Origin: Serinicoccus hydrothermalis | GTDB taxonomy: Bacteria > Actinomycetota > Actinomycetes > Actinomycetales > Dermatophilaceae | Assembly (NCBI RefSeq): GCF_001685415.1 | Contig: NZ_CP014989.1 | Span: 744,001-808,000, forward strand | Direction: 5' to 3' | DNA length: 64,000 bases | Part shown: positions 1 to 64,000 of the stretch, in pieces | Numbering within the stretch: position 1 is the stretch's first letter | Layout of the letters: each line of letters opens with the position of its first letter | The notes under the pieces: model-generated | Database searches by the model: none | Told to the model about the DNA's origin: nothing | What the model saw: only the letters and a program-made list of their open reading frames with translations | Translations under genes and position numbers: made by a program

Positions 1-1116
1 GAGGAAGGTGAAGAAGCCCAGCGTCTGCGCCGAGGAGACCTGCACGAACCACTCGCTGATGATGATCGACAGCCCCGTGGCGCTCATCATGCCGATGATC
101 CCGGCGTAGAGCGGGTACTGCAGCAGCACCTCGCCGACCGTCGAGCCGCCCGCCCGGATGAGCGCCGCGAGCTCGCGCGCGTTGCCGACGAGCAGCAGGA
201 TCAGCGCGAGGAAGGTCCAGTTGACGATGTCGAGGTTGAGGACGAAGCCGTTGCGCAGGAAGAAGATGACGAGGTAGGCCGAGAGCAGCACCCCGGCCAG
301 CACCGTCACCCCACGGAAGCCGTCGATGCGGTCGGCGGGCACCGGGGTGGCCGTCTCGGCGGCGGTGTCCGCGCCCTTGGCCGGGTTGCCGCGCTTCGGC
401 GACCTCGCGGCCTTCGTGCCCCCGGAGCCGGAGTCGCCGAAGACCTCGTCCGGGGCGAGCACGATCTCGTCGTGCTGGCGCGGGGCGAGCAGCATCATCG
501 CGCCGACGACCACGACCAGGGTGACGACGACGGCGATGATGTTCCACGAGGAGAACGTGGTCCGGGTGACCTCGACCAGGCCGCCGGGCAGATCGGTGTA
601 GGCGCCGCCCTCGGTGGCGGCGTTGAGCGGCCCGGAGCCGGAGTAGCCCATGTGCCAGACGACGAAGCCGGAGTAGCCCGAGGCCACGAGCAGCGGGTAG
701 TGCAGCTTGGTCCCGCGGTCGCGGAAGACGCGGGCGACCTCGACGGCCATGACCCCGGCGACGATGAGGCCGAGGCCGAAGCTGATGAGCGAGGCGATCC
801 CGCCCATGAGCGCGACGAAGCCGTAGGCCTGCCGCGGCCCGCGCGGGAGGGAGGCGACCCGGACGAGCAGGCGGTGCACCGGCGGCACGTTGGCCAGCGT
901 GTAGCCCAGCAGGAGCACGAGGGCGACCTGGGTCATGAACGCCAGCAGCCCGGTCAGCCCGTCGCCCCACGCGAGGATGACGTCGGCCAGGCCGGTGTCG
1001 GTCATCGTCAGCGCCATCGTGCCGACCACGAGGGTCAGCAGGATCGCGAGGGCGAACGAGCCGGGCAGCCAGCGTTCGACGAAGCGGGCCAGCGGGCGGG
1101 AGAGGGTCGAGAGCAT
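1..1116 (-). CDS. atoE: Short-chain fatty acid permease, AtoE family (3' end cut by window edge)
   Basis: The 372 codons in view start at ATG 1116-1114 behind a GGAGGAGC ribosome site and run off the left edge. The protein begins MLSTLSRPLARFVERWLP and continues through at least seven hydrophobic segments with Trp-Gly-Asp-Gly and Gly-Gly-Ile-Ala-Ser-Leu turns. This matches the AtoE/SCFA transporter family, which carries acetoacetate, butyrate and related short-chain acids across the inner membrane. A charged Gly/Ala/Lys linker near residues 230-260 separates two membrane halves. The gene lies 68 bp after the phosphotransferase gene on the same strand and is probably the last member of the acyl-CoA operon. 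It would then bring in the acid that the upstream ligase activates. Substrate is inferred from family and context. Confidence 0.82.
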   Translation of the reverse strand, partial: MLSTLSRPLARFVERWLPGSFALAILLTLVVGTMALTMTDTGLADVILAWGDGLTGLLAFMTQVALVLLLGYTLANVPPVHRLLVRVASLPRGPRQAYGFVALMGGIASLISFGLGLIVAGVMAVEVARVFRDRGTKLHYPLLVASGYSGFVVWHMGYSGSGPLNAATEGGAYTDLPGGLVEVTRTTFSSWNIIAVVVTLVVVVGAMMLLAPRQHDEIVLAPDEVFGDSGSGGTKAARSPKRGNPAKGADTAAETATPVPADRIDGFRGVTVLAGVLLSAYLVIFFLRNGFVLNLDIVNWTFLALILLLVGNARELAALIRAGGSTVGEVLLQYPLYAGIIGMMSATGLSIIISEWFVQVSSAQTLGFFTFL

Positions 1117-1184
1117 CGTTGCTCCTCCGTGTGTGTTCTGGTGGTGCGGGTGGTGGTGGGTGGACGGGTCGGGGTGGCTGCGCC

Positions 1185-2282
1185 TCAGAGCTGGCGCGAG
1201 TGCTCCTGGGCCTGGCGCAGCAGCTCGGGGACGCCCTCCTCGAGCATCGGGGCGAAGCGCTGGTCGCCGGGACGCTCCCCCCGCAGCCAGCGGGTGCGGA
1301 TCGCCTCGCAGAAGACCGCGGCCTTCCACAGCGCCAGCGCGCGGTACCACGGCAGGTGGGAGATGTCGGCGCCGGTGGCGGCGGCATACCGCTGAGCCAG
1401 CTCGTCGCGGTCCCACCACCCCTCCTGCACGGTCACCGGGCTGTGGTCCATGACGGTGGCGGGCCAGGCGCCGTGCCGGTCGCTCCAGGTCGCGGTGAGG
1501 TAGCCGAGGTCGGCGAGCGGGTCGCCGAGGGTGGCCATCTCCCAGTCGAGGATCGCTACGACCCGGCCCGGGTGGGTCGGGTCGAGCATGAGGTTGCCCA
1601 GCCGGAAGTCGCCGTGCACGACCGCGTGCGCGCTGCGCGTCGGGCGGTGCTCGTCGAGCCACGTGGCGAGCGGGTCGAACCCGGGCAGCTCGCGGGTCGA
1701 CACCTGGGGCCAGAGGTCGGTGAACCGTCGCACCTGCCGCTCGAGGTAGCCCTCGGGCCGGCCGAGCGCGGCCACGTCCTCGGCGGACACGTCGACGGTA
1801 TGCAGGGAGACCAGCGTGTCGACGACGCCGGCCGACGCGGCGGCCCGCGCGGCGGGGTCGTCGGCGAGCGCGCCGGGCTGGGTGTCGGTGACGACCTCGG
1901 CGTCGAGGTGCTCCATGACGTAGAAGGGGACGCCGAGGACGTCGGTGCCCTCCTCCACGGCGAGGATCCGCGGCACCCGTACGTCGTGCGCGCCGAGCAC
2001 CTGCTGGATGCGGGCCTCGCGCACCATGTCGTGGGTCGAGGGGGGCAGCGGCGGTCGGGGGCCGCGACGCAGGACGAGCCGGCGCTCACCGCGGCGCAGC
2101 AGGAAGGTGACGTTGGACTGGCCGTCGCCGATGCGCTCCCAGGAGAGCGGCCCCTCCCCCAGCCCGCGGACGTCGAGCCACGCGGTGACCGGGTCGAGGA
2201 CCAGCAGCGGCGGGTGCTCCAGCTCTTGCGCCTCCTCGGGCGTGACGACGACGTCGGACCCGTCCGGCGTGCTCGTGCTCAC
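1185..2282 (-). CDS. Aminoglycoside-kinase-like phosphotransferase (ACAD10/11- and LvaA-type)
   Basis: A 365-residue APH-fold kinase. Visible motifs are the Brenner loop VVHGDFRLGNLML near residues 219-231 and the metal-binding ILDWEMATLGDP near 242-253, both typical of the phosphotransferase family found next to or fused with acyl-CoA dehydrogenases. Relatives (the kinase domains of ACAD10/11, and LvaA in Pseudomonas putida) phosphorylate the hydroxyl of 4-hydroxyacyl-CoA so that it can be eliminated. The GTG start at 2282 is chosen because it gives a GTGA overlap with the acyl-CoA dehydrogenase stop (2279-2282). That overlap implies translational coupling with the dehydrogenase. Substrate is inferred from context; an unrelated small-molecule kinase role cannot be excluded. 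Confidence 0.8.
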   Translation of the reverse strand: MSTSTPDGSDVVVTPEEAQELEHPPLLVLDPVTAWLDVRGLGEGPLSWERIGDGQSNVTFLLRRGERRLVLRRGPRPPLPPSTHDMVREARIQQVLGAHDVRVPRILAVEEGTDVLGVPFYVMEHLDAEVVTDTQPGALADDPAARAAASAGVVDTLVSLHTVDVSAEDVAALGRPEGYLERQVRRFTDLWPQVSTRELPGFDPLATWLDEHRPTRSAHAVVHGDFRLGNLMLDPTHPGRVVAILDWEMATLGDPLADLGYLTATWSDRHGAWPATVMDHSPVTVQEGWWDRDELAQRYAAATGADISHLPWYRALALWKAAVFCEAIRTRWLRGERPGDQRFAPMLEEGVPELLRQAQEHSRQL

Positions 2283-3550
2283 GCGCGCCCACCGCCGTGC
2301 TCGGCACCGTCGTCGGTCCCGTCGACGAGGTCCAGCCGCGGTGTGCCCGCCTCGACCTCGCGCCGGCGGTCCGAGCTCGCCCGGCGCGCGATGGCCCACC
2401 GGTGGGTCTCGCTGGAGCCGTCGTAGATGCGGAACGGGCGGACCTCGAGGAGGTACTGCACCAGCGGCAGCTCCTCGGAGACGCCATCGCCGCCGCACAG
2501 CTGGATGCTGCGGTCGATGACGCGCTGGATGGCCTCGGCGCAGTGCACCTTGGCGACCGACGACATCCGCGAGCCGGCGCGCGGGTCGGACTCGAGCAGC
2601 CGGGCGGTGCGGTCGATGATCGCGTCCGAGGTCTCCAGGTCGATGACCGAGTCGGCGACAAGGCCTTGCGCGAGCCCGAGGTCGCGCATCGGCTGCCCGA
2701 AGAGCTCGCGGTGCTCGAGCCGGTCCAGGGCGACGTCCAGGGCGCGGCGGGCCAGGCCGAGCCAGCGCATGCAGTGGGTGAGGCGCGCCGGGCCGAGCCG
2801 CACCTGGGCATACCGGAAGCCCTCCCCCACCTCGCCGAGCACGGCCGAGGTCGGGACCCGCAGCCCCTCGAGGTGGACGTAGGGGTGGCCGCCGGCGATC
2901 GCGCGCTCGGTCGTGCGGATCTGCCGGCCGACGCGCCAGCCGGGGGCGTCGGTGCGGGTGAGGAACATCGTCGCGCCCTCGGGTCGCTCCTGCCCGTCGG
3001 GCAGCCGGACGGCGGGGGTGCGCGCCATGACGATCGCGATGTCGGCGTCGTTGGCGCCGCTGATGAACCGCTTGCGCCCCTCGATCACCCAGGTGTCGCC
3101 GTCGAGGTATGCCGTCGTCGACAGGGCCGAGGGGTCGGACCCGGCGCCCGGGTGCGGCTCGGTCATCGCGAAGCAGGAGCGGGCCTCGCCGCGGACGAGC
3201 GGGGCGAGGAACTCCTGCTGCTGCTCGGGGGTGGCGATGAGGGAGAGCATGTGCATGTTGCCCTCGTCCGGCGCCATGCAGTGCAGGACCGCCGGCCCGA
3301 TGGGCGAGTAGCCGGCCTCCTGCAGCACCGGCGACCAAGCCGGCAGCGGCAGGCCGAGCCCGCCGAAGTCGGCGCTGGAGACCGGCGCCCACACGCCCGC
3401 CTCCTTCGCCAGGGAACGCAGCCGGCTCAGCTCCTGCGGCGCGAGGGCCTCGCCCGTGGGCGGCTCGGCGGGCACGACGACCTCGCGGACGAAGTCGCGC
3501 GTGCGCGCCACCACGTCAGCGAGCTCGGGGGTCAGGGCGTCGGGCCTCAT
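2279..3550 (-). CDS. Acyl-CoA dehydrogenase family protein (ACAD10/11-like)
   Basis: A 423-residue flavoprotein with the normal acyl-CoA dehydrogenase layout. It has an N-terminal helical domain, the FAD/substrate segment FAMTEPHPGAGSDP near residue 127, and a C-terminal helical domain ending in IYDGSSETHRWAIARR near 374-389. Where short- and medium-chain enzymes carry a Glu base in YEG, this protein has Asp (YDG), as in ACAD10/11-type and some long-chain members. It overlaps the SDR gene by ATGA upstream and the phosphotransferase by GTGA downstream. That makes a kinase-dehydrogenase pair resembling the two halves of mammalian ACAD10/11. Likely role: turning the phosphorylated 4-hydroxyacyl-CoA into an enoyl-CoA for beta-oxidation. 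The family is certain; the exact substrate is inferred. Confidence 0.85.
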   Translation of the reverse strand: MRPDALTPELADVVARTRDFVREVVVPAEPPTGEALAPQELSRLRSLAKEAGVWAPVSSADFGGLGLPLPAWSPVLQEAGYSPIGPAVLHCMAPDEGNMHMLSLIATPEQQQEFLAPLVRGEARSCFAMTEPHPGAGSDPSALSTTAYLDGDTWVIEGRKRFISGANDADIAIVMARTPAVRLPDGQERPEGATMFLTRTDAPGWRVGRQIRTTERAIAGGHPYVHLEGLRVPTSAVLGEVGEGFRYAQVRLGPARLTHCMRWLGLARRALDVALDRLEHRELFGQPMRDLGLAQGLVADSVIDLETSDAIIDRTARLLESDPRAGSRMSSVAKVHCAEAIQRVIDRSIQLCGGDGVSEELPLVQYLLEVRPFRIYDGSSETHRWAIARRASSDRRREVEAGTPRLDLVDGTDDGAEHGGGRA

Positions 3551-4311: not shown

Positions 4312-5987
4312 GGGGTCTCCTTGGCGTCGGGGTCGATGTCGGTGTCGGTCTTGTCCATGTGCGGGTCGGTGTCGGTGACCGGATCCGTGTCGGCCTCGGG
4401 GTCGGCGCCGCTCTCACGGAGCTCGCGCCGACGGATCTTGCCGGTCGGGGTCTTGGGCAGCTCGGGGATGAGGTGGACCTGGCGCGGCACCTTGTATGCC
4501 GCCAGCTCGCCCCGCGCGTGCTCGCGCAGCTCCTCGGCGGTGATTGAGGGGACGTCGCCGTCCCCGCCGGTGAGGACGGCATACGCCACCACCGCCTCCC
4601 CGCGGTAGTCGTCCGGGACGCCGACGACGGCGCACTCGTGCACGGCCGGGTGGGCGAGCAGGACGTCCTCGACCTCGCGCGGCCACACCTTGTAGCCGGA
4701 GGTGTTGATCTGGTCCTTGAGCCGGTCGACGATGTAGACCCAGCCGTCCTCGTCCATCAGCGCGCCGTCGCCGGTGCGCAGGGCGCCCTCGACGAAGGTG
4801 TCGGCCGTCGCGTCGGGGTTGTCCCAGTAGCCGGGGACGACGCTGGGGCCGGAGATCTCCAGCTCCCCGGGCTCGCCGGGGGCCAGCGTCGCGCCGTCGG
4901 GGGACACGATCCGGACGTCGGTGCCGGGCAGGGGCAGCCCGATCGCCAGGGCGCCGGTGGCGGCGTCGACCGGCGCCTCGACGCCGGGCGGCACCCCGAT
5001 GCAGGCGGAGCTGGTCTCGGTCATGCCGTAGATGTTGTGGATGTAGTGGCCGTAGGTGTCGCGGAACCGGGTGACCGTGGTCGCAGGGACCGGGGCGCCG
5101 CCGGAGAAGAGGTGCCGGACGTGCGGGAAGTCGTCCGAGGAGAGGTCGTCGAGCCGGGCGAGCCCGTTGAAGACGGTGATGGAGCCGGTGGTGGAGGTCA
5201 CTCCGTCGTGGGCGAAGGCGTGGGCGACGGCCTCCGGGGTGGTCCGGCCGATGAGGACGACGCAGGAGCCGGCGAGGAGCGGGGCCATGAGGGTGATGAC
5301 GGCGCCGGTGATGTGGAAGATCGGGGCGACGCAGAGCACGCGGTCCTCGGGACCGAGATCCATCCAGGACGCCGTGGCCTGCGCGGCGGCCAGCACGTTG
5401 CCGTGCGTGTTCATCGCACCCTTGGGCGGGCCGGTCGTGCCGGAGGTGTAGGTGAGCAGCGCGACGTCGTCGGGGGCCGCATCGGGACTGGCGGTCCCCT
5501 CGCTCTCCGCCGTGCCCGCCGCCGACGTCGGGAGGTCCCCGTCGGACCAGATGGCCTCGACCTGGGTGTCCTCGGCCGCTGCTGCGGCGACGTCGGCGAG
5601 CTCGGGGTCGATGACGAGAATCCGGGCCCCCGAGTCGGCCAGGAGGTGGTGCAGCTCGCGCCCGTGGTACATCGGGTTGAGCAGCGGCACGATCGCCCCG
5701 CAGCGCCAGGCGGCGAGCAGGGTGACGACGGCGGTGGGGACGTTCTGGAGCAGGATGCCCACCCGGTCGCCGGGTCCGATGCCCGCCTCGCGGAGAGCGG
5801 CGGCCAGGGCGTCGGCCGCCTCGTCGAGCTCGCGCGCGGACCACACGCGGCCGTCGTGGAGCAGCGCGTCACCGTCCGGGTCCCGCTCGACCCGCGCCCG
5901 CCACGCCGAGGTGAGGTCGGGCGCGACGTCGGGCAGCGCCGTCGGCATACCGGGCGGGTAGTGCTGCAGCCACGGTCTGGTCGTCAT
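4308..5987 (-). CDS. Acyl-CoA synthetase (AMP-forming), with an acidic Asp/Thr-rich tail
   Basis: A 559-residue member of the AMP-binding superfamily and first gene of the operon. The P-loop YTSGTTGPPKG lies near residues 179-189, YGMTETSS near 315, the hinge RTGDGALMDEDGWVYIVDR near 400-420 and the catalytic-lysine region LPKTPTGKIRRREL near 510-523. It would convert a carboxylic acid, ATP and CoA into acyl-CoA. The start at 5987 follows GGAGGTGG. After the normal C-terminus comes an unusual tail of about 30 residues built from DTD/DPD repeats, encoded by a repetitive GTCGGTGTCGGT-like stretch around 4320-4410. The operator palindrome lies 13 bp upstream of the start codon, so the TetR protein encoded divergently probably controls it. 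Confidence 0.88.
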   Translation of the reverse strand: MTTRPWLQHYPPGMPTALPDVAPDLTSAWRARVERDPDGDALLHDGRVWSARELDEAADALAAALREAGIGPGDRVGILLQNVPTAVVTLLAAWRCGAIVPLLNPMYHGRELHHLLADSGARILVIDPELADVAAAAAEDTQVEAIWSDGDLPTSAAGTAESEGTASPDAAPDDVALLTYTSGTTGPPKGAMNTHGNVLAAAQATASWMDLGPEDRVLCVAPIFHITGAVITLMAPLLAGSCVVLIGRTTPEAVAHAFAHDGVTSTTGSITVFNGLARLDDLSSDDFPHVRHLFSGGAPVPATTVTRFRDTYGHYIHNIYGMTETSSACIGVPPGVEAPVDAATGALAIGLPLPGTDVRIVSPDGATLAPGEPGELEISGPSVVPGYWDNPDATADTFVEGALRTGDGALMDEDGWVYIVDRLKDQINTSGYKVWPREVEDVLLAHPAVHECAVVGVPDDYRGEAVVAYAVLTGGDGDVPSITAEELREHARGELAAYKVPRQVHLIPELPKTPTGKIRRRELRESGADPEADTDPVTDTDPHMDKTDTDIDPDAKETP

Positions 5988-6889: not shown

Positions 6890-8158
6890 TCACCCTCGCA
6901 GCTTCCATCGCACACCCGTGGGGTCCACGTCTGCCGTGGCACCTCGCTGGTGGACCCAGGTGTGGTGGCGTGGGCAGAGCAAGGCGTAGTTCGACAGGTC
7001 CGACCGGCCACCGTGGGCCCAGTGCACCACGTGGTGCGCGTCGCACCAGGTCGCGGGCACACTGCACCCCGGGAACGTGCACCCCTGGTCGCGGTGGGCC
7101 AGCGCCCTTCGTTGACCCGGCGTGACCAGGCGTCGGGCCTGACCCAGGTCCAGGATCTCCCCCTGGCTGCCGAGCACGGCGGGGATGAGGTCGGCCTCGC
7201 AGGCCAGTTGCCGCACCTGCCCGGCCGAGAGGAACCCGCCGTGGACCGTGCGCCCCGCATCTGCCCCACTCCCAGCATCAGCACCAGAGTCGTTGGCGGC
7301 CTGCCCGAGGGCCTCTTTCAGCGCGTCCAGCGGGACGGTGACCATGACCTGGGCCTTGGGTGTGGTCGGCTGCCCCTGGGTGCCGGCCACACCACGCCGC
7401 AGCGTGGTCAGGAACGCGTCGTAGCGCCGCTGGCCCGCGGTCCGCGTGTCGACCTCGCCGGTCGCGTCCTGCTCCTTCCGGCTCGCGGGCGCGGCCAGCG
7501 GAGACATGAGGATCGCCCTGATCGTCTCCAGGTCGGTGTCGTCACCGACGGTGAGCACGAAGCGGCGCACCGAGCCGTCCGCGAGGGAGGACTCGTGCAA
7601 GTCGCGCAGCTGGTGCCGGCTGCGCTCGTCCTCGTCCTGGTCCCGCTGGGAGGTGCACACCGCGACCAGGCGGCGGCACACCCGCTCCAGGTCCTTCTCG
7701 GTGAACCCCTCTTTGGCCGCGGCCCGGGCCAGCAACGCGACAGCCGCGGCGTACTCCTCGGCGGGCACTGCACTGCGCACCCGGTCCAGCGCCCGCACGA
7801 TGCGCGCCGCCCTCGCCAGGGGGATCCTCCCGTCCTCGACCGCGCTGACCAGCGGCTCGTGCACCGGCCGCTGCCCGGCCTGAGCCACCACCGCCACCTC
7901 GATCGCGTCCCGCCGCGACAGCCCCGGCGCGAGCAGGCATACCCAGTCCGGCACCGAGAACCCGGCCTCCACGTGCAACCCACGACCCACGCCCTCACGC
8001 ACCAGCCTCACCAGGCGCGCCCGCGACGCGGCGATCACCTCCCCCAGCTCCCCCACCGCCCGGGTCAGCTCGGCCTCCTGCAGGCGGGCGGGATCCTCGC
8101 CGGGCGTGCCGCCCGACGGATCGTCCGAGCCCCCGAAGGCCCCCGCCAACCTCTTCAT
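6890..8158 (-). CDS. DUF222 (13E12-type) protein with C-terminal HNH nuclease
   Basis: A 422-residue protein. The N-terminal two thirds are a DUF222 helical domain, with the characteristic LSRRDAIEV and GRIPLARAARIVRAL segments near residues 75-125. The C-terminus holds an HNH motif, CTFPGCSVPATWCDAHHV near residue 355 followed by NYALLCPRHHTWVH, with paired cysteines for zinc. This family is abundant in actinobacteria and is the REP13E12 family of mycobacteria. The ATG at 8158 is taken as start; an upstream ATG at 8188 would add ten residues. A LexA-like box sits directly before the chosen start, which suggests DNA-damage control. The nuclease target is unknown. Confidence 0.85.
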   Translation of the reverse strand: MKRLAGAFGGSDDPSGGTPGEDPARLQEAELTRAVGELGEVIAASRARLVRLVREGVGRGLHVEAGFSVPDWVCLLAPGLSRRDAIEVAVVAQAGQRPVHEPLVSAVEDGRIPLARAARIVRALDRVRSAVPAEEYAAAVALLARAAAKEGFTEKDLERVCRRLVAVCTSQRDQDEDERSRHQLRDLHESSLADGSVRRFVLTVGDDTDLETIRAILMSPLAAPASRKEQDATGEVDTRTAGQRRYDAFLTTLRRGVAGTQGQPTTPKAQVMVTVPLDALKEALGQAANDSGADAGSGADAGRTVHGGFLSAGQVRQLACEADLIPAVLGSQGEILDLGQARRLVTPGQRRALAHRDQGCTFPGCSVPATWCDAHHVVHWAHGGRSDLSNYALLCPRHHTWVHQRGATADVDPTGVRWKLRG

Positions 8159-8214: not shown

Positions 8215-8808
8215 TCAGCGGCCCAGCAACCGTGCCTTCGCCGCGGCGAACTCGCCGTCCGTGAGCGCCCCGCTGCGGTGCAGACGCGCCACGGACTCGA
8301 GCTCGGCGACCAGCGGGTGCCGGCCACCCTCGGGCGGCACGGGTTCGTCCGCGGGCGGCGGCTCCGCGCCGGGCCGACCCAGCGTCGGGATGACCGGCAG
8401 CCGCGGCCCATCGCTCCGCGCCCACGCCTCGTCGAGACCGTTGAACGTCTCCGGGGTGTAGTCGAGGGTGCCGAGCCCGACGGGCCCGTCGTCCGTCAGC
8501 GCGGTGACCCGACCCATGCTGAAGGTCTTGACTCGCTCGACCTGCAGCTCGGTGACGACGCTGCGCGGCACGTCGTCGACGACCGGGAGCCCGGCGCTCG
8601 GGTCGCCCAGGGTCAGCAGCCGCCGGTCGGTGACGACGAGCAGGCTGATGCTGCGGCGGATCCGCCAGCTGACGAAGAAGCCCTGCACCTCCTCGCCCGG
8701 CTGCAGCGCGAGCGCGAGGGAGCGACGGGCCGCGCGCAGGGTGCGCTTGCTGACCTTCTTGTCGCGGTATGCCGTGCCCTCGTCCGGCAGCGGCGGGTAA
8801 TCGCTCAC
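8215..8808 (-). CDS. Hypothetical protein with C-terminal SHOCT domain
   Basis: A 197-residue protein. The central part (about residues 40-110, LALQPGEEVQGFFV then SLLVVTDRRLLTLG) looks like a bacterial PH/YokE-type beta domain. A proline-rich linker follows. The last 35 residues (HPLVAELESVARLHRSGAL then TDGEFAAAKARLLGR) form a clear SHOCT motif, a short C-terminal helix pair often found on membrane- or stress-linked proteins. GTG 8808 is chosen because GGGGAG lies five bases upstream; an ATG at 8826 would add six residues. Function is unknown. Confidence 0.7.
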   Translation of the reverse strand: MSDYPPLPDEGTAYRDKKVSKRTLRAARRSLALALQPGEEVQGFFVSWRIRRSISLLVVTDRRLLTLGDPSAGLPVVDDVPRSVVTELQVERVKTFSMGRVTALTDDGPVGLGTLDYTPETFNGLDEAWARSDGPRLPVIPTLGRPGAEPPPADEPVPPEGGRHPLVAELESVARLHRSGALTDGEFAAAKARLLGR

Positions 8809-10648: not shown

Positions 10649-10695
10649 CCCCGGCCGGGCAGCCCGCAGGCATACCGCGTGGGACGATACCAGCC

Positions 10696-12945: not shown

Positions 12946-12964
12946 AACGGCATACCATGAAGCC

Positions 12965-56410: not shown

Positions 56411-57355
56411 ATGTCTACCCCCACCTTCCCCGGCACCGACCGCACCTTCGCCCCGATCAACCTCGGGGGCAACCCGTTCGGCTGGACCGCCGACGCGGAC
56501 GCCAGCTTCGCCGTCCTCGACGCCTTCCTCGCGGCGGGCGGCTCCTTCGTCGACACCGCCGACGCCTACTCCGCGTGGGCCGAGGGGCACGAGGGCGGGG
56601 AGTCCGAGGACATCATCGGGCGCTGGATGGAGGACCGCGGCAACCGCAACCAGGTGCTCGTCGCCACCAAGGTGGGCAAGAAGCCCGGGCGGGAGGGCCT
56701 GGGGCGGGACTCGGTGCTCGCCGCGCTGGACGAGTCGCTGGCCCGGCTGCGGACCGACCACCTCGACCTCTACTACGCGCACGCCGACGACGAGGACGTC
56801 GACATCGCCGACCAGGTGGCCACCTTCGACGAGGTCGTCCGCAGCGGCAAGGTGCGGGCGGTCGGCCTGTCGAACTACTCCCCCGACCGGCTGCGCGCCT
56901 TCCTCGAGACGGCGAAGGACCAGGGCGCCACCGTGCCGACCGCGATCCAGCCCCGCTACAGCCTCGTCTCGCGCGCCGACTACGAGCGCGACCTCGCCCC
57001 GCTCGTCGCGGACTTCGACCTCGCGGTCTTCTGCTACCCCGCCCTCGCCTCCGGCTTCCTCACCGGGAAGTACCGCACCGAGGAGGACTTCGCGGGGAAC
57101 GCACGGGGTGGCGCCGCCCGCCGGTATGCCGAGGCCGGCGGCCTCGCGGTGGTCGACGTGCTGGTCGACGTGGCAGGGCGGCACGACGTGCAGCCCGCGA
57201 GCGTGGCCCTGGCCTGGCTGCTGGCCAAGGGGGTCACCGCACCGATCGCGTCCGCCTCCCGCCCCGAGCAGCTGGAGCCGCTCATGGCCGCGGTCACGCT
57301 GCGGCTGACCGAGGACGAGGTGGCCGAGCTGGACGAGGCGTCCTCCGGCTTCTGA
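56411..57355 (+). CDS. Aldo/keto reductase
   Basis: A 314-residue AKR. It has NLGGNPFGWTADADASFAVL near 17-36, the catalytic Asp and Tyr in FVDTADAYSAWAEGHEGGES near 46-65, Lys in VLVATKVGKKPGREG near 83 and His in HLDLYYAHADDEDVD near 117-131. These enzymes reduce aldehydes and ketones with NADPH. ATG 56411 opens the family-typical first strand. It is divergent from the oxygenase gene with a 106-bp promoter gap. Substrate not known. Confidence 0.85.
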   Translation: MSTPTFPGTDRTFAPINLGGNPFGWTADADASFAVLDAFLAAGGSFVDTADAYSAWAEGHEGGESEDIIGRWMEDRGNRNQVLVATKVGKKPGREGLGRDSVLAALDESLARLRTDHLDLYYAHADDEDVDIADQVATFDEVVRSGKVRAVGLSNYSPDRLRAFLETAKDQGATVPTAIQPRYSLVSRADYERDLAPLVADFDLAVFCYPALASGFLTGKYRTEEDFAGNARGGAARRYAEAGGLAVVDVLVDVAGRHDVQPASVALAWLLAKGVTAPIASASRPEQLEPLMAAVTLRLTEDEVAELDEASSGF

Positions 57356-57458
57356 CCCGGGCGACGCCCACCCGTCCGCGTCGCACCATGGCCCTCCCGG
57401 GGGCCGGTCGCTATGCTGATCGGCGTCCGGGTCGGCATACGGGGAGGGACGGTCGCAG

Positions 57459-57986
57459 GTGGTCGGAGGAGAGCCAGCCGAGCTGAGGCGGTGCGGTCGC
57501 GACCTCGCGGCCGTCTCCGGGACCCTCGGGGCCGGGCGGAGCCGTCTGCTCGCCGGTGGAGGTATGCCCGCTCCCGGGCTCGGCCTCGCCTCGCAGGACA
57601 CCCAGGTGGCCGCGGCCTACGACAGGGTGCTGCGCGCGGTCGAGCTCGCCGCCGGCCACCTGCAGCGGACGCTGCTGCACGACGCCGGCCACCTGGAGCA
57701 GGCGGCGGGCGACCTCGAGGCCTCGCCGTCGCCGCGGGAGATCCGACCGGAGCCGGGAGAGGATCGCGGCCCCGTGCTCGGCCGCGCCGAGCCGTACGGG
57801 CCGGGGCGCCGGCTGCCCGTCGACCGGGACGAGCTCCGCGACCTGCCCCGCGCCGCGCCCTACCGCACCGGCCCGGCGCTGGTCACCGACGAGCCGGACC
57901 GTCCCGACCTGCGCGATCTTCCCCGCGCGGAGCCCTACCGGCGCGGCCCCGCCCTGGACACCGAGGACCCGGGGACCGTCTCGTGA
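57459..57986 (+). CDS. Helical hypothetical protein with PYR-GPAL repeats
   Basis: A 175-residue protein. The first 85 residues are a helical hairpin (LRRCGRDLAAVSGTLGAGRS and VAAAYDRVLRAVELAAGHLQ) resembling WXG100/ESX-type small proteins. The tail carries tandem repeats of LRDLPRAxPYRxGPALxT near 125-170 and a related RAEPYGPGRRLPV unit. GTG 57459 follows GGGAGGGA. It overlaps the next gene by GTGA, so the two form one unit. No homologous function is recognised; a type VII secretion-linked or toxin-immunity role is only a possibility. Confidence 0.6.
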   Translation: MVGGEPAELRRCGRDLAAVSGTLGAGRSRLLAGGGMPAPGLGLASQDTQVAAAYDRVLRAVELAAGHLQRTLLHDAGHLEQAAGDLEASPSPREIRPEPGEDRGPVLGRAEPYGPGRRLPVDRDELRDLPRAAPYRTGPALVTDEPDRPDLRDLPRAEPYRRGPALDTEDPGTVS

Positions 57987-58663
57987 TCACCCTCACGAGA
58001 CCGGACGTGTGGCACCTGCGGGCGCAGACCTCGTGCCTGCAGGAGGCCATCGACGCCTGGCGCGGCCTGCGGGACGCCGGCGGCCACGCCGGCGCCGACA
58101 GCGCGGACGTCACGGCGCGGCTGGCCCGGGCCTGGGAGGGCAACCGGGCGGACTCCTACCTCGACTACGCCCCGAGGCTGACCCAGGGGCTGGAGCTCGT
58201 GCACGGCATGGCGCAGGCGGTCCTCACCCAGCTGCACGCCCTGCACGACCTCACCGCGTCCACGCAGCGCGACCTCGACGCCTCCTTCTCCCGGGCCAGT
58301 GCCGTGGCGGCCTCGGTGCGCCGGCTCGAGGACGTCGAGCAGGTGCGCTTCGAGCTGGACGACGAGGACGACGTCGAGGAGGTCGAGCGGGAGCACGACC
58401 GGGCGCGGGACCTCCTCGAGGCGGCCCGCCTCGAGATCGCCGAACGCTCGCGGGCGCTCGAGGCGACGGCGGCCGACGCCGACACCCTCGCCGCCGCCTG
58501 GGCCGGCCCGGCGGACGGCATACCGCTCTGGGACACCCCGCTGCGGGGAGCCCTGGGGCCCGGCGTGCGTCCCCTGCCGGAGCGGCCCGGGCCGCGCGGT
58601 GTCGAGCACCCGCCGGTCGAGGGCGCCGACGGCGGCCCGACCTACGACCCGCAGGCGCGCTGA
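57983..58663 (+). CDS. Helical hypothetical protein, partner of the preceding gene
   Basis: A 226-residue, almost wholly helical protein with a coiled-coil-like acidic and basic stretch around FELDDEDDVEEVEREHDRAR near 121-140. The helical N-terminal part ends in DSYLDYAPRLTQGLELVHGM; it recalls WXG100/LXG helical domains but lacks a clear WXG. The C-terminal 40 residues are Pro/Gly-rich. GTG 57983 is fixed by overlap with the previous stop. It ends 15 bp before the stop of the convergent molybdenum hydroxylase gene. Function unknown. Confidence 0.6.
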   Translation: MITLTRPDVWHLRAQTSCLQEAIDAWRGLRDAGGHAGADSADVTARLARAWEGNRADSYLDYAPRLTQGLELVHGMAQAVLTQLHALHDLTASTQRDLDASFSRASAVAASVRRLEDVEQVRFELDDEDDVEEVEREHDRARDLLEAARLEIAERSRALEATAADADTLAAAWAGPADGIPLWDTPLRGALGPGVRPLPERPGPRGVEHPPVEGADGGPTYDPQAR

Positions 58664-58678
58664 GCCGCGACCGGCGGG

Positions 58679-61060
58679 TCAGACCTCGACGTCGTCGACG
58701 GTGGCGAGGTCTGGCAGGTCCTCGAAGATCGCGGGCGGCTCGCGCCACGGCTCGTGCTCGCCCCGCGCCGCCTCCTGGATCGCGGTCAGCACCCGCTCCG
58801 GCGTGCACGGGAGGTCGACGTGCCGCACCCCTAGGTGGGCGACCGCGTCGACGACGGCGTTCTGCACCGCCGGCGTCGACCCCACCGTCGCCGCCTCCCC
58901 GATCCCCTTGGCGCCCAACGGGTTCCGGTCGGTCGGGGTCGTCGTGAGGCTGGTCTCCAGCTGCACCAGGTCGCCGGCCGTGGGCAGCGTGTAGTCCGCC
59001 AGGCTGGCCGTGACCGGGTTTCCCTGCTCGTCGTAGCAGAACTCCTCCCACAGCGCCTGCGAGATCCCCTGCGCGCACCCCCCGTGCTGCTGGCCGCGCA
59101 CGAGCAGCGGGTTGACCACGGTGCCGCAGTCGTCGACCGCGACGTGCCGCAGCAGCCGGACCGCCCCGGTCTCGACGTCGACCTCCACGACGCTGACGTG
59201 CGTGCCGAAGGGGAAGGTAGAGCCGTCCTGGGAGAAGTCGTGGTCCACGCGCAGGCCCTCCCCCTCCTCGTGCGCCCGGCGCGCCACCTCCTCCCAGGTC
59301 ACCGAGGCACCCGGGACCCCCTTGACCTCGAACCGGCCGTCGGCCAGCTCCACGTCCGCCTCGGCCGTCTCCAGCAGGTCGGCCGCCAGCCGGAGCGCCT
59401 GCTCCCGCAGCTCCTGCGCCGCCTCCAGCACCGCGCTGCCGCCCAGCTGCAACGACCTCGCCCCGCCGGTGCCCCCGCCCGTCCGCACCCGGACCGTGTC
59501 GGACTGGACGTACTCCACCCGCTCCAGCGGCAGTCCGAGCGCGTCGGCCACGAGCATGGAGAAGGCGGTCGCGTGGCCCTGCCCGTGGGCGGACGTGCCC
59601 GCCATGACGAGGACCGAGCCGTCCTCGGCGACCCGGATCCCGGCATACTCCGAGCCGCCGAAACCGGTGATCTCGACGTAGCTGGCGATGCCGATCCCGA
59701 GCTGCCAGGACGCGCCCCGCTCCCGCCGGGCCCGCTGCTCGGCCCGCAGGTCCTCGACCCCGGCCGCGTCCAGCGCGGCCTGCAGGGTGGCGGCGTAGTC
59801 GCCGGTGTCGTAGCTCGCCCCGAACTTCGTCCCGTGCGGGAAGTCCTGCCCGGCGAGGAAGTTGCGCCGCCGGAACTCCTCGGGCTCCAGGCCCGCGGTC
59901 CGCGCCGCGTGGTCCATCACCCGTTCCAGCATGGCCGCGGCCTCCGGCCGGCCGGCGCCGCGGAAGGCACCGGTCGGCGCCGTGTTGGTCAGGACCGAGA
60001 CCGCGTCGTAGCGCAGGCGAGGGATCCGGTACGCCCCCTCGGACATCGTGCGCGTCGACCCGCTCGCGAAGGAGCCGCCGAAGCCGGCGTACGCCCCGCA
60101 GTCGCCGACCATCCGTGCCCGCATCCCGGTGATGAGGCCCTCCTCGTCGAGCCCGACCTCGACGTACTGCACCTGGCCCCGGCTGCTCATCGAGAGCATG
60201 GTCTCGCTGCGCGTCTCCACCCACCGGACCGGTCGGCGCAGGAGGCACGCCGCCCGGACGACCGCCGCGTGCTCGGGGATGATCCCCGCCTTGCCGCCGA
60301 AGGCCCCGCCCACGTGCGGCGCCCGCACCCGGACCGCGTCGGCGGGCAGCCCGCTCCAGCGCACGAGGAGGCGCTGGGCCAGGTGCGGGTGCTGGGTGGC
60401 CAGGGTCACGTCCAGCCCGGTGACGGTCCCGTCGTCGTCGACCACTGGGCGGACGAGGATCCCGTGCCCCTCGATCGGGCTCGTCGCCATCCGGTTGTTC
60501 TCCATGCGCAGCCGCGCCACCCGGTGCGCACCGGCGAGCACGTCCGGCTCCCCCTCGGGGTCCTTGACCGCGAGCACGACGTTGGTGCCGAGGCCGGGGA
60601 ACTGCCTGGGGGCGTCGTCGGCGAGCGCCTGCTCCATGTCGACCACCGCGGGCAGCTCCTCCTCGTCGACGTCGACGAGGTCGCCGGCGTCGACGGCGGC
60701 GGCCCGCCCGGTGGCGACGACCAGCGCGACCGGGTCGCCGACGTAGCGCACCCGGTCGGTCGCCAGGGCGGTGCGGGCGACGTCGTCGTGGATCTGCGCG
60801 AAGGGCGGCACCGGGTCGTCGCCGAGCTCGGCCGCCGTGAAGACCCCCACGACCCCGGGCGCCTGCGCCGCCGCAGCGGTGTCGATGCCGTGGACCAGCG
60901 CGTGCGGCGTCGGGCTGCGCACGAAGTCGGCGTGGAGTACCTCGGGGTCGTCGAGGTCGGCGTCCCCGACGAAGGTGCCCCGGCCGCGCAGCAGGTCGGG
61001 GTCCTCGACGCGGCGCACCTCGGTGCCCAGGATGGAGGTCCCTCGGGTGGGTGTCGGCAT
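58679..61060 (-). CDS. Xanthine dehydrogenase/aldehyde oxidase family large subunit (molybdenum hydroxylase)
   Basis: A 793-residue MoCo-binding subunit. MoCo loops include THPHVGG-like RAPHVGGAFGGKAGIIPEHA near 240, GAFRGAGRPEAAAMLERVMD near 362 and GTSAHGQGHATAFSMLVADA near 490. The catalytic Glu is in AKGIGEAATVGSTPAVQNA near 719. The AFRGAGR form matches the 'form II' CoxL group, not carbon-monoxide dehydrogenase form I (which has the AYXCSFR loop). Such enzymes need a 2Fe-2S and an FAD subunit; neither gene is in the window. ATG 61060 lies in a GGCATACC motif. The substrate is unknown. Confidence 0.85.
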   Translation of the reverse strand: MPTPTRGTSILGTEVRRVEDPDLLRGRGTFVGDADLDDPEVLHADFVRSPTPHALVHGIDTAAAAQAPGVVGVFTAAELGDDPVPPFAQIHDDVARTALATDRVRYVGDPVALVVATGRAAAVDAGDLVDVDEEELPAVVDMEQALADDAPRQFPGLGTNVVLAVKDPEGEPDVLAGAHRVARLRMENNRMATSPIEGHGILVRPVVDDDGTVTGLDVTLATQHPHLAQRLLVRWSGLPADAVRVRAPHVGGAFGGKAGIIPEHAAVVRAACLLRRPVRWVETRSETMLSMSSRGQVQYVEVGLDEEGLITGMRARMVGDCGAYAGFGGSFASGSTRTMSEGAYRIPRLRYDAVSVLTNTAPTGAFRGAGRPEAAAMLERVMDHAARTAGLEPEEFRRRNFLAGQDFPHGTKFGASYDTGDYAATLQAALDAAGVEDLRAEQRARRERGASWQLGIGIASYVEITGFGGSEYAGIRVAEDGSVLVMAGTSAHGQGHATAFSMLVADALGLPLERVEYVQSDTVRVRTGGGTGGARSLQLGGSAVLEAAQELREQALRLAADLLETAEADVELADGRFEVKGVPGASVTWEEVARRAHEEGEGLRVDHDFSQDGSTFPFGTHVSVVEVDVETGAVRLLRHVAVDDCGTVVNPLLVRGQQHGGCAQGISQALWEEFCYDEQGNPVTASLADYTLPTAGDLVQLETSLTTTPTDRNPLGAKGIGEAATVGSTPAVQNAVVDAVAHLGVRHVDLPCTPERVLTAIQEAARGEHEPWREPPAIFEDLPDLATVDDVEV

Positions 61061-61111
61061 ACCCCCATCCTGCCTCGCGACCGCTGCGGCGGCGACCGGC
61101 ATGATGGGGGT

Positions 61112-62287
61112 ATGCCTCCCACCTCGCCCGACCTGCTGGACCTGGACTCGCTGCTCACCGAGGACGAGCGCGCGGTGCGCGCCTCCGTGCGCCGGGCCTG
61201 CGAGGAGCACGTGCTCCCGCACGTCGCGGGGTGGTACGAGCGCGGCGAGGTGCCGCACGACCAGGTCCGTGAGCTGGCCCGCGAGTTCGGCTCGCTCGGG
61301 CTGCTCGGGATGCACCTGGAGGGCTACGGCTGCGCCGGGATGAGCGCGGTCGACTACGGCGTCGCGAGCACCGAGCTGGAGGCCGCCGACTCCGGCGTAC
61401 GGTCGCTGGTCTCGGTGCAGGGGTCGCTGGCCATGCAGGCGCTGCACGCCTTCGGCAGCGAGGAGCAGAAGCAGGAGTGGCTGCCCCCGATGGCGGCCGG
61501 CGAGGCGATCGGCTGCTTCGGGCTCACCGAGCCCGACCACGGCTCGGACCCCGGCTCGATGACCACCCGGGCGGAGCGCGACGGGCAGGACTGGGTGCTC
61601 CGTGGCACCAAGACGTGGATCACCAGCGCCCCGCTCGCGGACGTCGCGGTGGTCTGGGCGCGCACCGGGGACGGGGTGCGCGGCTTCGTCGTGCCGACCG
61701 CGACCCCGGGCGTCAGCACCCCCACGATCCGGCACAAGATGTCGCTGCGCGCCTCCGTCACCGGGCAGGTCGTGCTCGAGGACGTGCGGCTGCCGGCGGA
61801 CGCGGTGCTGCCCGGGGTGCGCGGGCTCAAGGGGCCATTGTCCTGCCTGTCGGAGGCGCGCTACGGGATCGTCTGGGGCTCGATGGGTGCCGCCCGCACG
61901 GCGCTGGAGACGGCGCTGTCGTATGCCGCGGAGCGCGAGCAGTTCGGGCGCCCGATCAGCGCCTTCCAGCTCACCCAGGCCAAGCTCGCCCGGATGCACC
62001 AGGCGTGGGCGACCGGCACCCTGCTCGCGCTGCACCTGGGCCGGCTCAAGGACAGCACCGGCCTGCGGCCCGAGCAGGTGAGCGTGGGCAAGCTCAACAA
62101 CGTCACCGCCGCGCTGGAGATCTGCAGGACGGCGCGCACCATCCTCGGCGCCAACGGCGTCTCCGGCGAGTACCCGATCATGCGGCACGCCAACAACCTG
62201 GAGTCGGTGCTCACCTACGAGGGGACCGAGGAGATGCACACCCTGGTCGTCGGGCAGGCGCTCACCGGCCAGCAGGCCTACCGCTGA
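61112..62287 (+). CDS. Acyl-CoA dehydrogenase, glutaryl-CoA dehydrogenase-like
   Basis: A 391-residue acyl-CoA dehydrogenase. The GCDH-like stretch SGVRSLVSVQGSLAMQALHA lies near 92-111, FGLTEPDHGSDPGSMTTRAE near 136-155 and the C-terminal NNLESVLTYEGTEEMHTLVV near 362-381. Catalytic Glu is near 370 (TYEGT). This C-terminus closely resembles glutaryl-CoA dehydrogenases, which oxidise and decarboxylate glutaryl-CoA to crotonyl-CoA. ATG 61112 lies in a GGTATGCC motif and is divergent from the molybdenum hydroxylase by 51 bp. The gene overlaps the convergent acyltransferase end by ten bases. Glutaryl-CoA specificity is likely but not proven. Confidence 0.8.
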   Translation: MPPTSPDLLDLDSLLTEDERAVRASVRRACEEHVLPHVAGWYERGEVPHDQVRELAREFGSLGLLGMHLEGYGCAGMSAVDYGVASTELEAADSGVRSLVSVQGSLAMQALHAFGSEEQKQEWLPPMAAGEAIGCFGLTEPDHGSDPGSMTTRAERDGQDWVLRGTKTWITSAPLADVAVVWARTGDGVRGFVVPTATPGVSTPTIRHKMSLRASVTGQVVLEDVRLPADAVLPGVRGLKGPLSCLSEARYGIVWGSMGAARTALETALSYAAEREQFGRPISAFQLTQAKLARMHQAWATGTLLALHLGRLKDSTGLRPEQVSVGKLNNVTAALEICRTARTILGANGVSGEYPIMRHANNLESVLTYEGTEEMHTLVVGQALTGQQAYR

Positions 62288-64000
62288 CCGCCGGCCCCGC
62301 GCGGGGCGCCCACGCCCAGGTCCTCGAAGGCCGCCAGCAGCCGGGCCTCCAGCACCGGGGCGAGCGAACGGGCATACGTGTCGGTGATGTGGCTGCCCTG
62401 GCGGTAGACGAGCACGCCGCCGACCACCGGCGGGCACCGGTCCTGGCCGGGGCACACCCAGTCGTTCATCGTGACGAAGGTCGAGGTCGGCACCTGCGCC
62501 ACCGCCCGCAGCAGCGGGCCGGTCCCGCTGCCCTCGTTGTAGTCGATGCGGCACCGGTCCAGGCCGTCGCGGTGGTCGGCGACGCAGGCGTAGACCTGGG
62601 TGTCCCCGGGCTGCACGGTGTCGGCCAGCGCGACGACCGGCACCCCCTCCTCGCCGAGCGTCCGCCACCGCTGCGCCATCCCCGCGGCGAGCGCCTCGCC
62701 GGACAGCTCGCCATCCTCCCCGACCCCCTGCGACTTCACCGATGAGGTGAGCACGACGTCCGGGGGGTCCTCGCGCAGCTCCTCGCCGACCTGGTCCCCC
62801 CACTCCCGGCAGGCCTGCGCTCGGGTCGGGTCGTCGAAGTGCACGAGGGTCGTGCTCCACGGGCAGGCGGAGCGGTAGTAGAGGTCCAGGCGCCAGCCCT
62901 GCTCCCGGCCCACCAGGTCGAGGGCACCGACCCACTGGGCGATCTTGGAGTCCCCGACGACGGCCACGTGCAGCCCCCCGTCGGCCTCCCCGTAGGTGCA
63001 CCGCACCACTTCCTCCCCCGTGCTGTCGCACCCGTCGTCGTAGAGCGGCGGCACGTCCTGGATCGCCTCCAGGGGGTCGGGGGTGATGGAGGCGGCGTCG
63101 AGCACGAGGTCGTCGAGCTGCGGCGGCGGCGCCCCCTCGGTGCCTGTGGCGACCGGGGTATGCCGTTGCCCCTCTTCGGCCGCCTCGGACCCGGGCCCGT
63201 CGTCGGCGGCACCGAGCTCGGCCCCGGCGCGCCTCCCGACGGAGGCGTCGGCCGTCCCGGACGGCGGCGCACCGGTGCTCGCGGCGTCCCCCCGCAGCGC
63301 GCCCGCCCCCTGCGCCGAGGACCCTGCCACCTGGTTGGCGCGGACCTGCCGGTCCACCTCCCGGACCAGCAGGCCCCCCGCGGTGGCGGCCACGACGGTG
63401 CAGGCCAGGCCGAGCGCGAGGGCGGCGCGCGGCGCGGAGAGCCGGCCGCGGGCATACCGGACCGGCTGCTCGACGAGGAGGTAGCCGAGCACGGCGGGCA
63501 CGACGGCGAGCGCGACCACGCCCAGCCCCGCCCACACGCCCAGCTCCCCGAAGCGCGCCTCCACCAGCACGAGCACGGGCCAGTGCCAGAGGTAGAGCGA
63601 GTAGGACAGGGCGCCGGTCCACTGCACCACGGGCCACGCGTAGAGGCGTGCGGGGCCGAACCTCGCCGAGGCGCGCACACCGCCGACCAGCATGGCGGCC
63701 ACCCCGAGCGTCGGCACGAGGGTGGCCCAGCCGGGCCAGGCCGTGCCCGCCCCCAGCAGCACCCCACCGGCGAGCACGGCCACCGGCCCGACCCAGGCCA
63801 GCCCGGTGGCGAGCCGCACGGGGACCCGGTGCCACCAGACGGCTCCGAGCGCCACCAGCGCCCCCGCACCCAGCTGCCACAGCCGGGTGGTCGTGACGAA
63901 GTAGGCCTGCGGCGGGCTCGTGGCGCTGAGGTGTACGGCCCAGACGAAGGAGGGCAGCACGACCAGCACGGTCAGGAGCACCGCCACGGTGCGGACGACG
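62278..64000 (-). CDS. OafA-type acyltransferase with C-terminal SGNH domain (5' end outside window)
   Basis: The window holds the 3' 574 codons. The visible N-terminal part has about five hydrophobic segments of an Acyl_transf_3 membrane domain, including LSATSPPQAYFVTTTRLWQL, WTGALSYSLYLWHWPVLVLV and LGYLLVEQPVRYAR. A disordered Ala/Gly/Glu linker of about 80 residues follows (near residues 215-290). The last 280 residues form an SGNH hydrolase-like domain with HVAVVGDSKIAQWVGALDLV and RQGSHITDTYARSLAPVLEA (His-Asp-type end). Such proteins O-acetylate cell-surface polysaccharides. The 5' end lies beyond 64000. It overlaps the dehydrogenase gene by ten bases at 62278-62287. Confidence 0.82.
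   Translation of the reverse strand, partial: VVRTVAVLLTVLVVLPSFVWAVHLSATSPPQAYFVTTTRLWQLGAGALVALGAVWWHRVPVRLATGLAWVGPVAVLAGGVLLGAGTAWPGWATLVPTLGVAAMLVGGVRASARFGPARLYAWPVVQWTGALSYSLYLWHWPVLVLVEARFGELGVWAGLGVVALAVVPAVLGYLLVEQPVRYARGRLSAPRAALALGLACTVVAATAGGLLVREVDRQVRANQVAGSSAQGAGALRGDAASTGAPPSGTADASVGRRAGAELGAADDGPGSEAAEEGQRHTPVATGTEGAPPPQLDDLVLDAASITPDPLEAIQDVPPLYDDGCDSTGEEVVRCTYGEADGGLHVAVVGDSKIAQWVGALDLVGREQGWRLDLYYRSACPWSTTLVHFDDPTRAQACREWGDQVGEELREDPPDVVLTSSVKSQGVGEDGELSGEALAAGMAQRWRTLGEEGVPVVALADTVQPGDTQVYACVADHRDGLDRCRIDYNEGSGTGPLLRAVAQVPTSTFVTMNDWVCPGQDRCPPVVGGVLVYRQGSHITDTYARSLAPVLEARLLAAFEDLGVGAPRGAGGQR

Follow-up and report, generated by a model that had tools for sequence, protein, structure and literature searches.

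Chi sites, known from Escherichia coli (GCTGGTGG), from other Proteobacteria in variant forms, and from Bacillus subtilis and Staphylococcus aureus, are asymmetric, short, over-represented words whose orientation matters, and polarity along the leading strand is one of their usual properties. According to excerpts of PMC8022716, E. coli Chi occurs once per 5 kb, and the dialects reported in Proteobacteria differ by one or two letters. The DNA uptake sequences and uptake signal sequences (DUS/USS) of Neisseriaceae and Pasteurellaceae reach about 1000-2000 copies per genome on both strands, occur as dialects, and form hairpins where copies are paired in inverted orientation; uptake by Haemophilus influenzae is reported, in excerpts of PMC1939737, to be indifferent to the orientation of the site. 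The highly iterated palindrome HIP1 (GCGATCGC) is spread across coding and intergenic DNA and gives way to alternates in some lineages; HIP1 and its alternates are described, in excerpts of PMC4390886, as palindromes tied to methyltransferases. Here we describe an iterated element of Serinicoccus hydrothermalis (genome G000; a single contig of 3,597,394 bases), as seen in a 64-kb stretch (C1:744001-808000; hereafter the window), in the whole genome and in relatives. Among named matches to RlmN, one of the core proteins of G000, Ornithinimicrobium cerasi comes first (88%), ahead of a metagenome-assembled genome titled Acidobacteria (87%) and one of Ornithinimicrobium (85%); by these matches the genome would belong with Ornithinimicrobium, in the family Dermatophilaceae. 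The element, GGTATGCC (GGCATACC on the opposite strand), is not palindromic. We suggest, with a probability of about 0.42, that it acts as a directional, Chi-like site in DNA-end processing, a function that we infer from the results below.

An exact count of the window gave 62 copies of the heptamer GTATGCC/GGCATAC (32 forward, 30 reverse) and 44 of the octamer GGTATGCC/GGCATACC (27 forward, 17 reverse). An earlier note on this DNA had arrived at the same totals, and all 12 of the coordinates that it cited hold the motif. Its estimate of about six heptamers expected by chance agrees with a third-order Markov model (6.0); dinucleotide shuffles predict 2.39, and the Markov expectation for the octamer is 2.1. 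The note had also proposed a genome-wide comparison with Markov expectation, and we found that the counts do not match that expectation. The whole genome contains 2180 copies of GGTATGCC, over-represented on both strands (1065 forward, 1115 reverse), and 11 copies of the reversed motif, which served as the control word for genome-wide counts (4 forward, 7 reverse). In a 464-kb sample, made up of the window and 20 spread stretches, 321 copies were seen against 2.7 expected by an order-3 model whose background excluded the motif copies, or 5.1 and 11.6 at orders 2 and 4. A codon-aware, three-periodic model likewise expects 7.8 copies where 256 are found, in all six frames. Together, the shuffles, the Markov models, the reversed control and the codon-aware model exclude chance, base composition and codon usage as the cause. 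By counts and background models alike, GGTATGCC is a strongly over-represented, asymmetric short word, and its heptamer occurs about once per 2 kb on each strand.

The first G of the motif is favoured and dispensable, as AGTATGCC, CGTATGCC and TGTATGCC occur 25, 59 and 42 times in the 464 kb. The neighbouring palindromes GGTATACC and GGCATGCC reach both-strand counts of 6 and 12 (3 and 6 sites) there, against 321 for the motif. GGTATGCT seemed depleted, but not after the motif copies had been removed from the background. A also seems to be avoided at position 9, which is a background effect: it follows ATGCC in only 3% of cases. The same sample holds a second, weaker excess word, GGAGTAC/GTACTCC (79 vs 14; 16 vs 2.8 in the window), although GTAC itself is depleted; CTAG and GCATGC are strongly depleted, with both-strand counts of 204 vs 1028 and 120 vs 409.

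The motif is a highly iterated element at the level of DNA, a conclusion that is strongly supported. With genes called by our own codon model, the 343 octamers in 504 kb of G000 divide into 274 coding, 55 intergenic and 14 boundary copies, non-coding DNA being 12.0% of the sequence. The coding copies use all six frames without a clear sense bias (124 sense, 150 antisense). Within the sequence surveyed, the heptamer contains 56 of the 74 ATA codons (76%) and 190 of the 281 TAT codons (68%). Furthermore, where the amino acid is unchanged, an A or T at the third codon position is retained in 81% of cases within the motif (418 of 513) and in 19% elsewhere (1920 of 10356), over 20 ordered pairs of five genomes, which are not independent. 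Because six frames are used, copies also lie between genes, ATA and TAT codons are concentrated in the motif, and third-position A/T is kept, we reject conserved amino acids as the cause. This result bears out the earlier note's reading of a DNA-level element whose copies fall in every reading frame, and it answers the check that the note had set against that claim, namely whether the motif simply follows amino acids. No gene is called at 17239 or 42276, the two copies described as intergenic. Of the start codons placed within copies, the forward ATG at 51471 and the reverse starts at 51459 and 61060 match gene calls, but no gene is called at the copy at 61109.

Near relatives conserve the motif. 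We examined a 60-kb region in four relatives at 83-88% identity, with permuted words of the same letters as the control; alignments shorter than 200 bases were left out here and in the third-position and turnover comparisons. The motif was intact in 17/20 cases from G003 to G000 (control 120/299), 28/35 from G012 to G000 (186/423), 21/31 from G000 to G015 (197/378) and 14/27 from G000 to G019 (113/334). Distant comparisons showed no clear excess of conservation: G000 octamers were intact in 0/4 cases in G006, G009 and G030 together, 2/5 in G018 (control 23/94), 0/2 in O. cerasi, 3/7 in L030 (37/81) and 1/8 in L031 (21/107). In a test of turnover, private sites lay near same-strand and opposite-strand private sites of the relative about equally often, except below 300 bp (20 vs 8). 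The record L030, titled as an Acidobacteria metagenome-assembled genome, and L064, titled Sporosarcina, each contain an rlmN locus that resembles the actinobacterial query, with identities of 87% and 64% and GC fractions of 0.74 and 0.66; both are likely mislabelled or mixed assemblies.

Copies on the same strand avoid each other. Among neighbours no more than 1200 bp apart, 245 were inverted and 86 pointed the same way; 2000 trials with shuffled orientations gave a mean of 165 inverted neighbours and a maximum of 196, so that none reached the observed number. The window alone has 33 inverted and 8 same-way neighbours, and neighbours more than 1200 bp apart are divided evenly (67 and 64). We found no same-strand pairs below 100 bp in 504 kb, against 23 expected, and 8, 12, 9, 15 and 18 in the successive 100-bp bins from 100 to 600 bp, against about 23 expected in each. 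The same-strand ratio was 0.96 and 0.78 to 1 kb and 1.00 and 1.43 to 1.5 kb, and the ratios for opposite-strand pairs ranged from 0.87 to 1.86. The excess of inverted neighbours is thus due to depletion of same-strand copies, and since this depletion comes without an opposite-strand effect, each strand has a separate exclusion zone that ignores the other: two copies on one strand tend not to lie within about 0.6 kb of each other, and opposite-strand copies are placed independently. Abundant control words were flat in G000 (same:opposite, 101:90 for GGTCACC and 273:290 for GACCTCG), and four rarer ones (5:7, 4:1, 25:14 and 8:3) lacked the motif's excess of opposite pairs.

Similar spacing is found elsewhere. 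In genus g39, same-strand pairs per 200 bp to 1 kb were 0, 4, 4, 3 and 4 against 8.0, 7.9, 7.9, 7.8 and 7.7 expected (ratios 0.00-0.52). In 15 stretches from 14 other genera, chosen for carrying the motif, the corresponding counts were 10, 8, 9, 13 and 16 against 18.9, 18.7, 18.5, 18.3 and 18.1 (0.43-0.53 to 600 bp). Adjacent pairs within 1 kb in Nocardioidaceae were 66 same to 130 opposite, against 115 to 55 for the control word GATCGNCG; overlaps of up to 8 bp were excluded here, and the palindromic middle of GTACG may contribute. Some inverted pairs (in L165, L138 and L135) form long hairpins resembling terminators.

The distribution of the motif is patchy, and its form varies. In 30 of 31 genomes of the genus, GGTATGCC occurs 285-2180 times; G009 has 38 copies (control 7). 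In the family (163 genomes, 48 genera), a genome has between 6 and 2180 copies. Entire genera, g24, g33, g35 and g41 among them, stay near background, and within a single genus G106 has 11 copies and G107 has 1694. Elsewhere in the order, 359 sampled genomes of 16 families reached at most 136 copies, in a search blind to other dialects. We surveyed dialects in stretches of 48 further genomes, of which that of G041 is all N and contributes nothing. G000 uses GGTATGCC, the final G not being needed; GTATGCCG occurs in most of the motif-rich genera surveyed, and GTATGCCG or GTATGNCG in many Dermatophilaceae. Genera g36 and g19 prefer a leading C, and in g13, g34 and g43 position 6 is open to other letters. 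The dialect is GGATGCCG in g8 and g46, and GTACGNCG in g3 and G106. Switches therefore occur inside a family, and the pattern common to the dialects is GKAYGNCG.

The codon-aware model confirmed the dialects, and by this model the words recur beyond the family: Microbacterium (261 vs 39.8) and other Microbacteriaceae (56 vs 12.7) have GGATGCCG, and Nocardioidaceae have GTACGNCG (237 vs 60.0). Each motif-rich genome favours one form, with small secondary excesses such as GGATGNCG in Nocardioidaceae (100 vs 60.5). Whole-genome counts of GGATGCCG against its reversed control were 4147/172 in M. aerolatum, 4483/235, 3816/220 and 3002/214 in three other Microbacterium, 774/234 in Microbacterium sp. 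8M, and 3816/392, 3838/439 and 3949/289 in G045, G046 and G161. The other 23 of these 31 genomes ranged from 1.1 (G000, 481/420) to 4.3, with 10 in Pseudoclavibacter (627/63); because most of these ratios sit at 1.1-4.3, we take the baseline to be about 2. No motif of the GKAYGNCG kind was found in the coding sequence examined from G009 (77 kb) and G145 (83 kb). In Actinomadura, GGACGNCG is slightly in excess (177 vs 123.5), which was not convincing as a dialect.

Other words were noted along the way. Janibacter has an excess of GGATGNCG (35 vs 17.0), and g24 and g33 have an unrelated CGAAGGGG excess (45 vs 5.7 and 48 vs 10.3) with a partial same-strand deficit. An unrelated iterated word, CGAAGGGGG/CCCCCTTCG, occurs 42 times in 60 kb of G079 (L125-L127; 1.8 expected) and 45 times in 100 kb of G115 (L128-L132; 3.4 expected), and also in Janibacter (L035, L036); it lies in several frames with partial same-strand exclusion, and is possibly the corresponding signal of these genera.

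Some phages carry the motif in the dialect of their host. We compared host-dialect copies in eight Microbacterium phages with a model under which the chromosomes have 287 copies vs 32.8. Four small Orlajensenviridae (17 kb), in which no polymerase or exonuclease is annotated, were enriched 5.2-9.0 times on both strands (Efeko 13 vs 1.8, Naby 7 vs 1.4, JaimeB 14 vs 1.7, VitulaEligans 15 vs 1.7). The larger phages were at 0.9-2.0 times expectation: Min1 (5 vs 5.4) and three in which a DNA polymerase and an exonuclease are annotated, Lahqtemish (7 vs 3.5), Kenzers (7 vs 3.6) and Franklin22 (5 vs 3.7). This contrast is what would be predicted if unprotected linear DNA gained from the site. Nine of 12 IMG/VR relatives of Efeko, some of which are the named phages again, had at least 5 copies against 0.9-1.6 expected, and three had 0-3. 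The small phages are also rich in the palindrome GACATGTC (both-strand counts of 16 and 18 vs 0.3 in JaimeB and VitulaEligans, 12 vs 0.2 in Naby; L272-L274), perhaps repressor or replication sites, and Franklin22 (L275) has the HIP1 word GCGATCGC at a both-strand count of 32 vs 6.5 expected.

Enrichment, conservation at the DNA level in near relatives, strand-specific spacing, dialects and presence in some phages all have to be accounted for. An oriented 8-mer under DNA-level selection or drive, counted per strand and slow to change its dialect, fits a directional reader. In the mechanism that we envisage, GGTATGCC would be the G000 dialect of an asymmetric, direction-dependent site (GKAYGNCG) kept by several actinobacterial lineages. 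An enzyme travelling from a DNA end, for which the AdnAB helicase-nuclease is a candidate, would read the site in one orientation and change its behaviour. If reading is confined to one orientation, then each strand would need its own copies within reach, and a nearby second copy on the same strand would add nothing. Both that a DNA-end-processing enzyme is the reader and that AdnAB is that enzyme are suggested rather than observed. Matches to PF12705 occur in 27 of the 27 genomes searched. One locus was compared from each of 20 of these genomes, and in all 20 a pair of large adjacent frames aligns with that of G000; we take these pairs to be AdnA and AdnB from domain and arrangement rather than from a dedicated model. 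Four genomes (G032, G046, G151, G155) have a second, divergent PF12705 pair in the same arrangement. Among the readings considered, Chi-like control best explains the orientation, the style of the dialects, which as in Chi differ by one or two letters between lineages, and most of the phage contrast.

Several results weigh against this interpretation. G009 and G145, in which no motif was found, likewise have AdnAB-like genes. Over the 20 loci, neither the AdnA tree nor the AdnB tree is sorted by dialect: G106 (GTACGNCG) groups with its congeners G107 and G108, and G161 (GGATGCCG) stands beside G065 and G155 (GTATGCCG), apart from Microbacterium, as judged without a separate species tree. On these trees we reject a replacement of AdnAB together with the dialect. 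The density of the motif is about three times that of Chi in E. coli. Microbacterium shows only weak same-strand exclusion (90 same, 118 opposite), and five Ornithinimicrobium relatives give a mixed picture (0.28 in the first 200 bp, then 1.03, 0.94, 0.47 and 0.75 in 200-bp bins). Among the phages, Min1 is large and unenriched, yet has neither polymerase nor exonuclease annotated; the four enriched phages are one family; and other words are even more over-represented in them. Of 48 more distant contigs (those below 7,000 bases left out), two were above the cut-off and seven more had 5-7 copies against 1.1-1.7 expected, and no other dialect was clearly adopted in them. Finally, with replication arms guessed from noisy GC skew, forward and reverse copies are balanced in both (83/84 and 76/78), so that we saw neither the leading-strand polarisation of Chi nor the replichore-following orientation of FtsK-orienting, KOPS-like sites. 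The earlier note had held that the motif is not a polarity signal, which stands for replication polarity as far as tested but not for local orientation, which matters. Because no leading-strand bias was seen and the motif is lost in genomes that keep AdnAB-like genes, we do not call it Chi. RecC does not track the motif either (present in 11 of the 22 motif-rich genomes and in 11 of the 17 that are GGTATGCC-poor), so RecBCD is rejected as the sole reader, and unlike for Chi the enzyme is only a candidate. These RecC counts, like those given below for DprA and two methyltransferase families, come from a set of 41 genomes in which two GGATGCCG users fall outside both groups. Genomes were assigned to the GGTATGCC-poor group by their GGTATGCC counts only, so that users of other dialects may be among them; some of the 17 were sampled for such dialects (G106, in this group, uses GTACGNCG).

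We considered whether the motif might be a DNA uptake sequence, with transformation preferring motif DNA, copies accruing by biased uptake and dialects forming per lineage. Its density, its balance between strands and its dialects do resemble the uptake sequences of Neisseria and Haemophilus, inverted pairs form hairpins in relatives, and the competence genes are there, ComEC in 149 of 150 family genomes and DprA in 41 of 41. However, both genes are just as present in GGTATGCC-poor genomes and are rejected as determinants; the sole genome without ComEC is a fragmented motif-rich assembly (G152), and the ComEC match of G009 adjoins a contig end and is uninformative. PilM of type IV pili occurs in only 6 of 150 genomes, not including G000, and is likewise rejected. 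Moreover, exclusion on the same strand only is unexpected if import ignores orientation, as reported for H. influenzae, and would need orientation-dependent import; nor does uptake explain why phages carry the motif. We therefore regard this explanation as unlikely. Rather unlikely, too, is an oriented strand-discrimination signal of a mismatch-repair-like process, in which a strand-specific nickase or mark would need a copy on each strand within a repair range of about 1 kb. Such a signal would explain the per-strand spacing, at a scale of about 1-2 kb, well, and actinobacteria are not known to have MutS and MutL. For HIP sites with a role in mismatch repair, Elhai proposed a density of about 1 per 1000 bases (excerpts of PMC4390886). 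Against it, we found no such enzyme or mark in this analysis, and neither of two methyltransferase families tracks the motif: PF01555 occurs in 7/22 motif-rich and 6/17 GGTATGCC-poor genomes and not in G000, and PF02384 in 14/22 and 13/17. The signal would also have no known actor.

The same counts bear on a HIP1-like methyltransferase site, accumulating through methylation-dependent repair or mutation bias. The earlier note had likened the motif to HIP1, and the likeness holds for its density and for the alternates in some lineages: like the HIPs of PMC4390886, in the excerpts of that source, it is highly iterated, replaced by alternates and lost in some lineages. It does not hold for the rest, as the motif is an asymmetric 8-mer with orientation-dependent spacing, a methyl mark needs no orientation, and no matching methyltransferase was found in the two families; we judge this improbable. 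A binding site for an abundant nucleoid or regulatory protein would account for even, genome-wide placement in coding and intergenic DNA, but exclusion on one strand with independent placement on the other is hard to fit to chromosome packing, and no such protein was identified here, making it improbable as well. An artefact of codon usage or base composition, to which the concentration of GGATGCCG copies in some frames of Microbacterium might point, is refuted for G000 by the codon-aware counts in all six frames, the reversed control and the intergenic copies. It is a tentative but tenable proposal that several families of Actinomycetes share an oriented GKAYGNCG signal, regularly spaced on each strand by itself and with dialects per lineage, a Chi-like site or a strand-discrimination site of an actinobacterial DNA-repair enzyme (with AdnAB as the candidate), which some phages have adopted in the dialect of their host.

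Features of the motif in the window (positions in the window; strand left empty where none applies).
Feature	Position	Strand	Remark
Whole window	1..64000		counts: 62 GTATGCC/GGCATAC, 44 of them GGTATGCC/GGCATACC
Inverted pair GGCATAC..GTATGCC	51455..51475		holds called starts of two divergent genes
Called gene, start in this pair	50224-51459	-	
Called gene, start in this pair	51471-52628	+	
Inverted pair, extended complementary arms	61056..61116		reverse-strand copy holds called start 61060
Inverted pair	13331..13378		41 bp apart
Motif copy	17240..17246	+	no called gene at site
Motif copy	42277..42283	+	no called gene at site
Heptamer	1383..1389	-	
Heptamer	2807..2813	-	
Heptamer	3107..3113	+	
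Heptamer	4494..4500	+	
Heptamer	4578..4584	-	
Heptamer	5944..5950	-	
Heptamer	7936..7942	-	
Heptamer	8767..8773	+	
Heptamer	10669..10675	-	
Heptamer	10824..10830	-	
Heptamer	11235..11241	+	
Heptamer	11645..11651	-	
Heptamer	12831..12837	+	
Heptamer	12949..12955	-	
Heptamer	13331..13337	-	
Heptamer	13372..13378	+	
Heptamer	15764..15770	+	
Heptamer	16541..16547	-	
Heptamer	17739..17745	+	
Heptamer	20216..20222	+	
Heptamer	22420..22426	-	
Heptamer	23164..23170	+	
Heptamer	24679..24685	-	
Heptamer	25902..25908	-	
Heptamer	27528..27534	+	
Heptamer	29394..29400	-	
Heptamer	30485..30491	+	
Heptamer	30736..30742	-	
Heptamer	31396..31402	+	
Heptamer	33282..33288	+	
Heptamer	34039..34045	+	
Heptamer	34511..34517	-	
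Heptamer	35414..35420	+	
Heptamer	41580..41586	+	
Heptamer	42815..42821	-	
Heptamer	44212..44218	-	
Heptamer	44501..44507	+	
Heptamer	44969..44975	-	
Heptamer	45762..45768	+	
Heptamer	49464..49470	+	
Heptamer	49894..49900	+	
Heptamer	50063..50069	-	
Heptamer	51455..51461	-	
Heptamer	51469..51475	+	
Heptamer	52572..52578	-	
Heptamer	52866..52872	+	
Heptamer	53655..53661	-	
Heptamer	54277..54283	+	
Heptamer	55690..55696	+	
Heptamer	57124..57130	+	
Heptamer	57434..57440	-	
Heptamer	57562..57568	+	
Heptamer	58517..58523	-	
Heptamer	59642..59648	-	
Heptamer	61056..61062	-	
Heptamer	61110..61116	+	
Heptamer	61921..61927	+	
Heptamer	62371..62377	-	
Heptamer	63158..63164	+	
Heptamer	63451..63457	-	

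We found no description of the motif family, nor of a recognition site for AdnAB, in the open-licence literature that we searched. Strand-specific spacing can be measured in any genome, and as a functional fingerprint it tells directional signals apart from palindromic or packing sites. Should the motif instead be a repair or uptake signal, it would expose an actinobacterial route of mismatch repair or gene exchange that is undescribed in the literature searched. If the site does control an AdnAB-type enzyme, then it would give that group of helicase-nucleases a recognition site, together with a set of natural variants.

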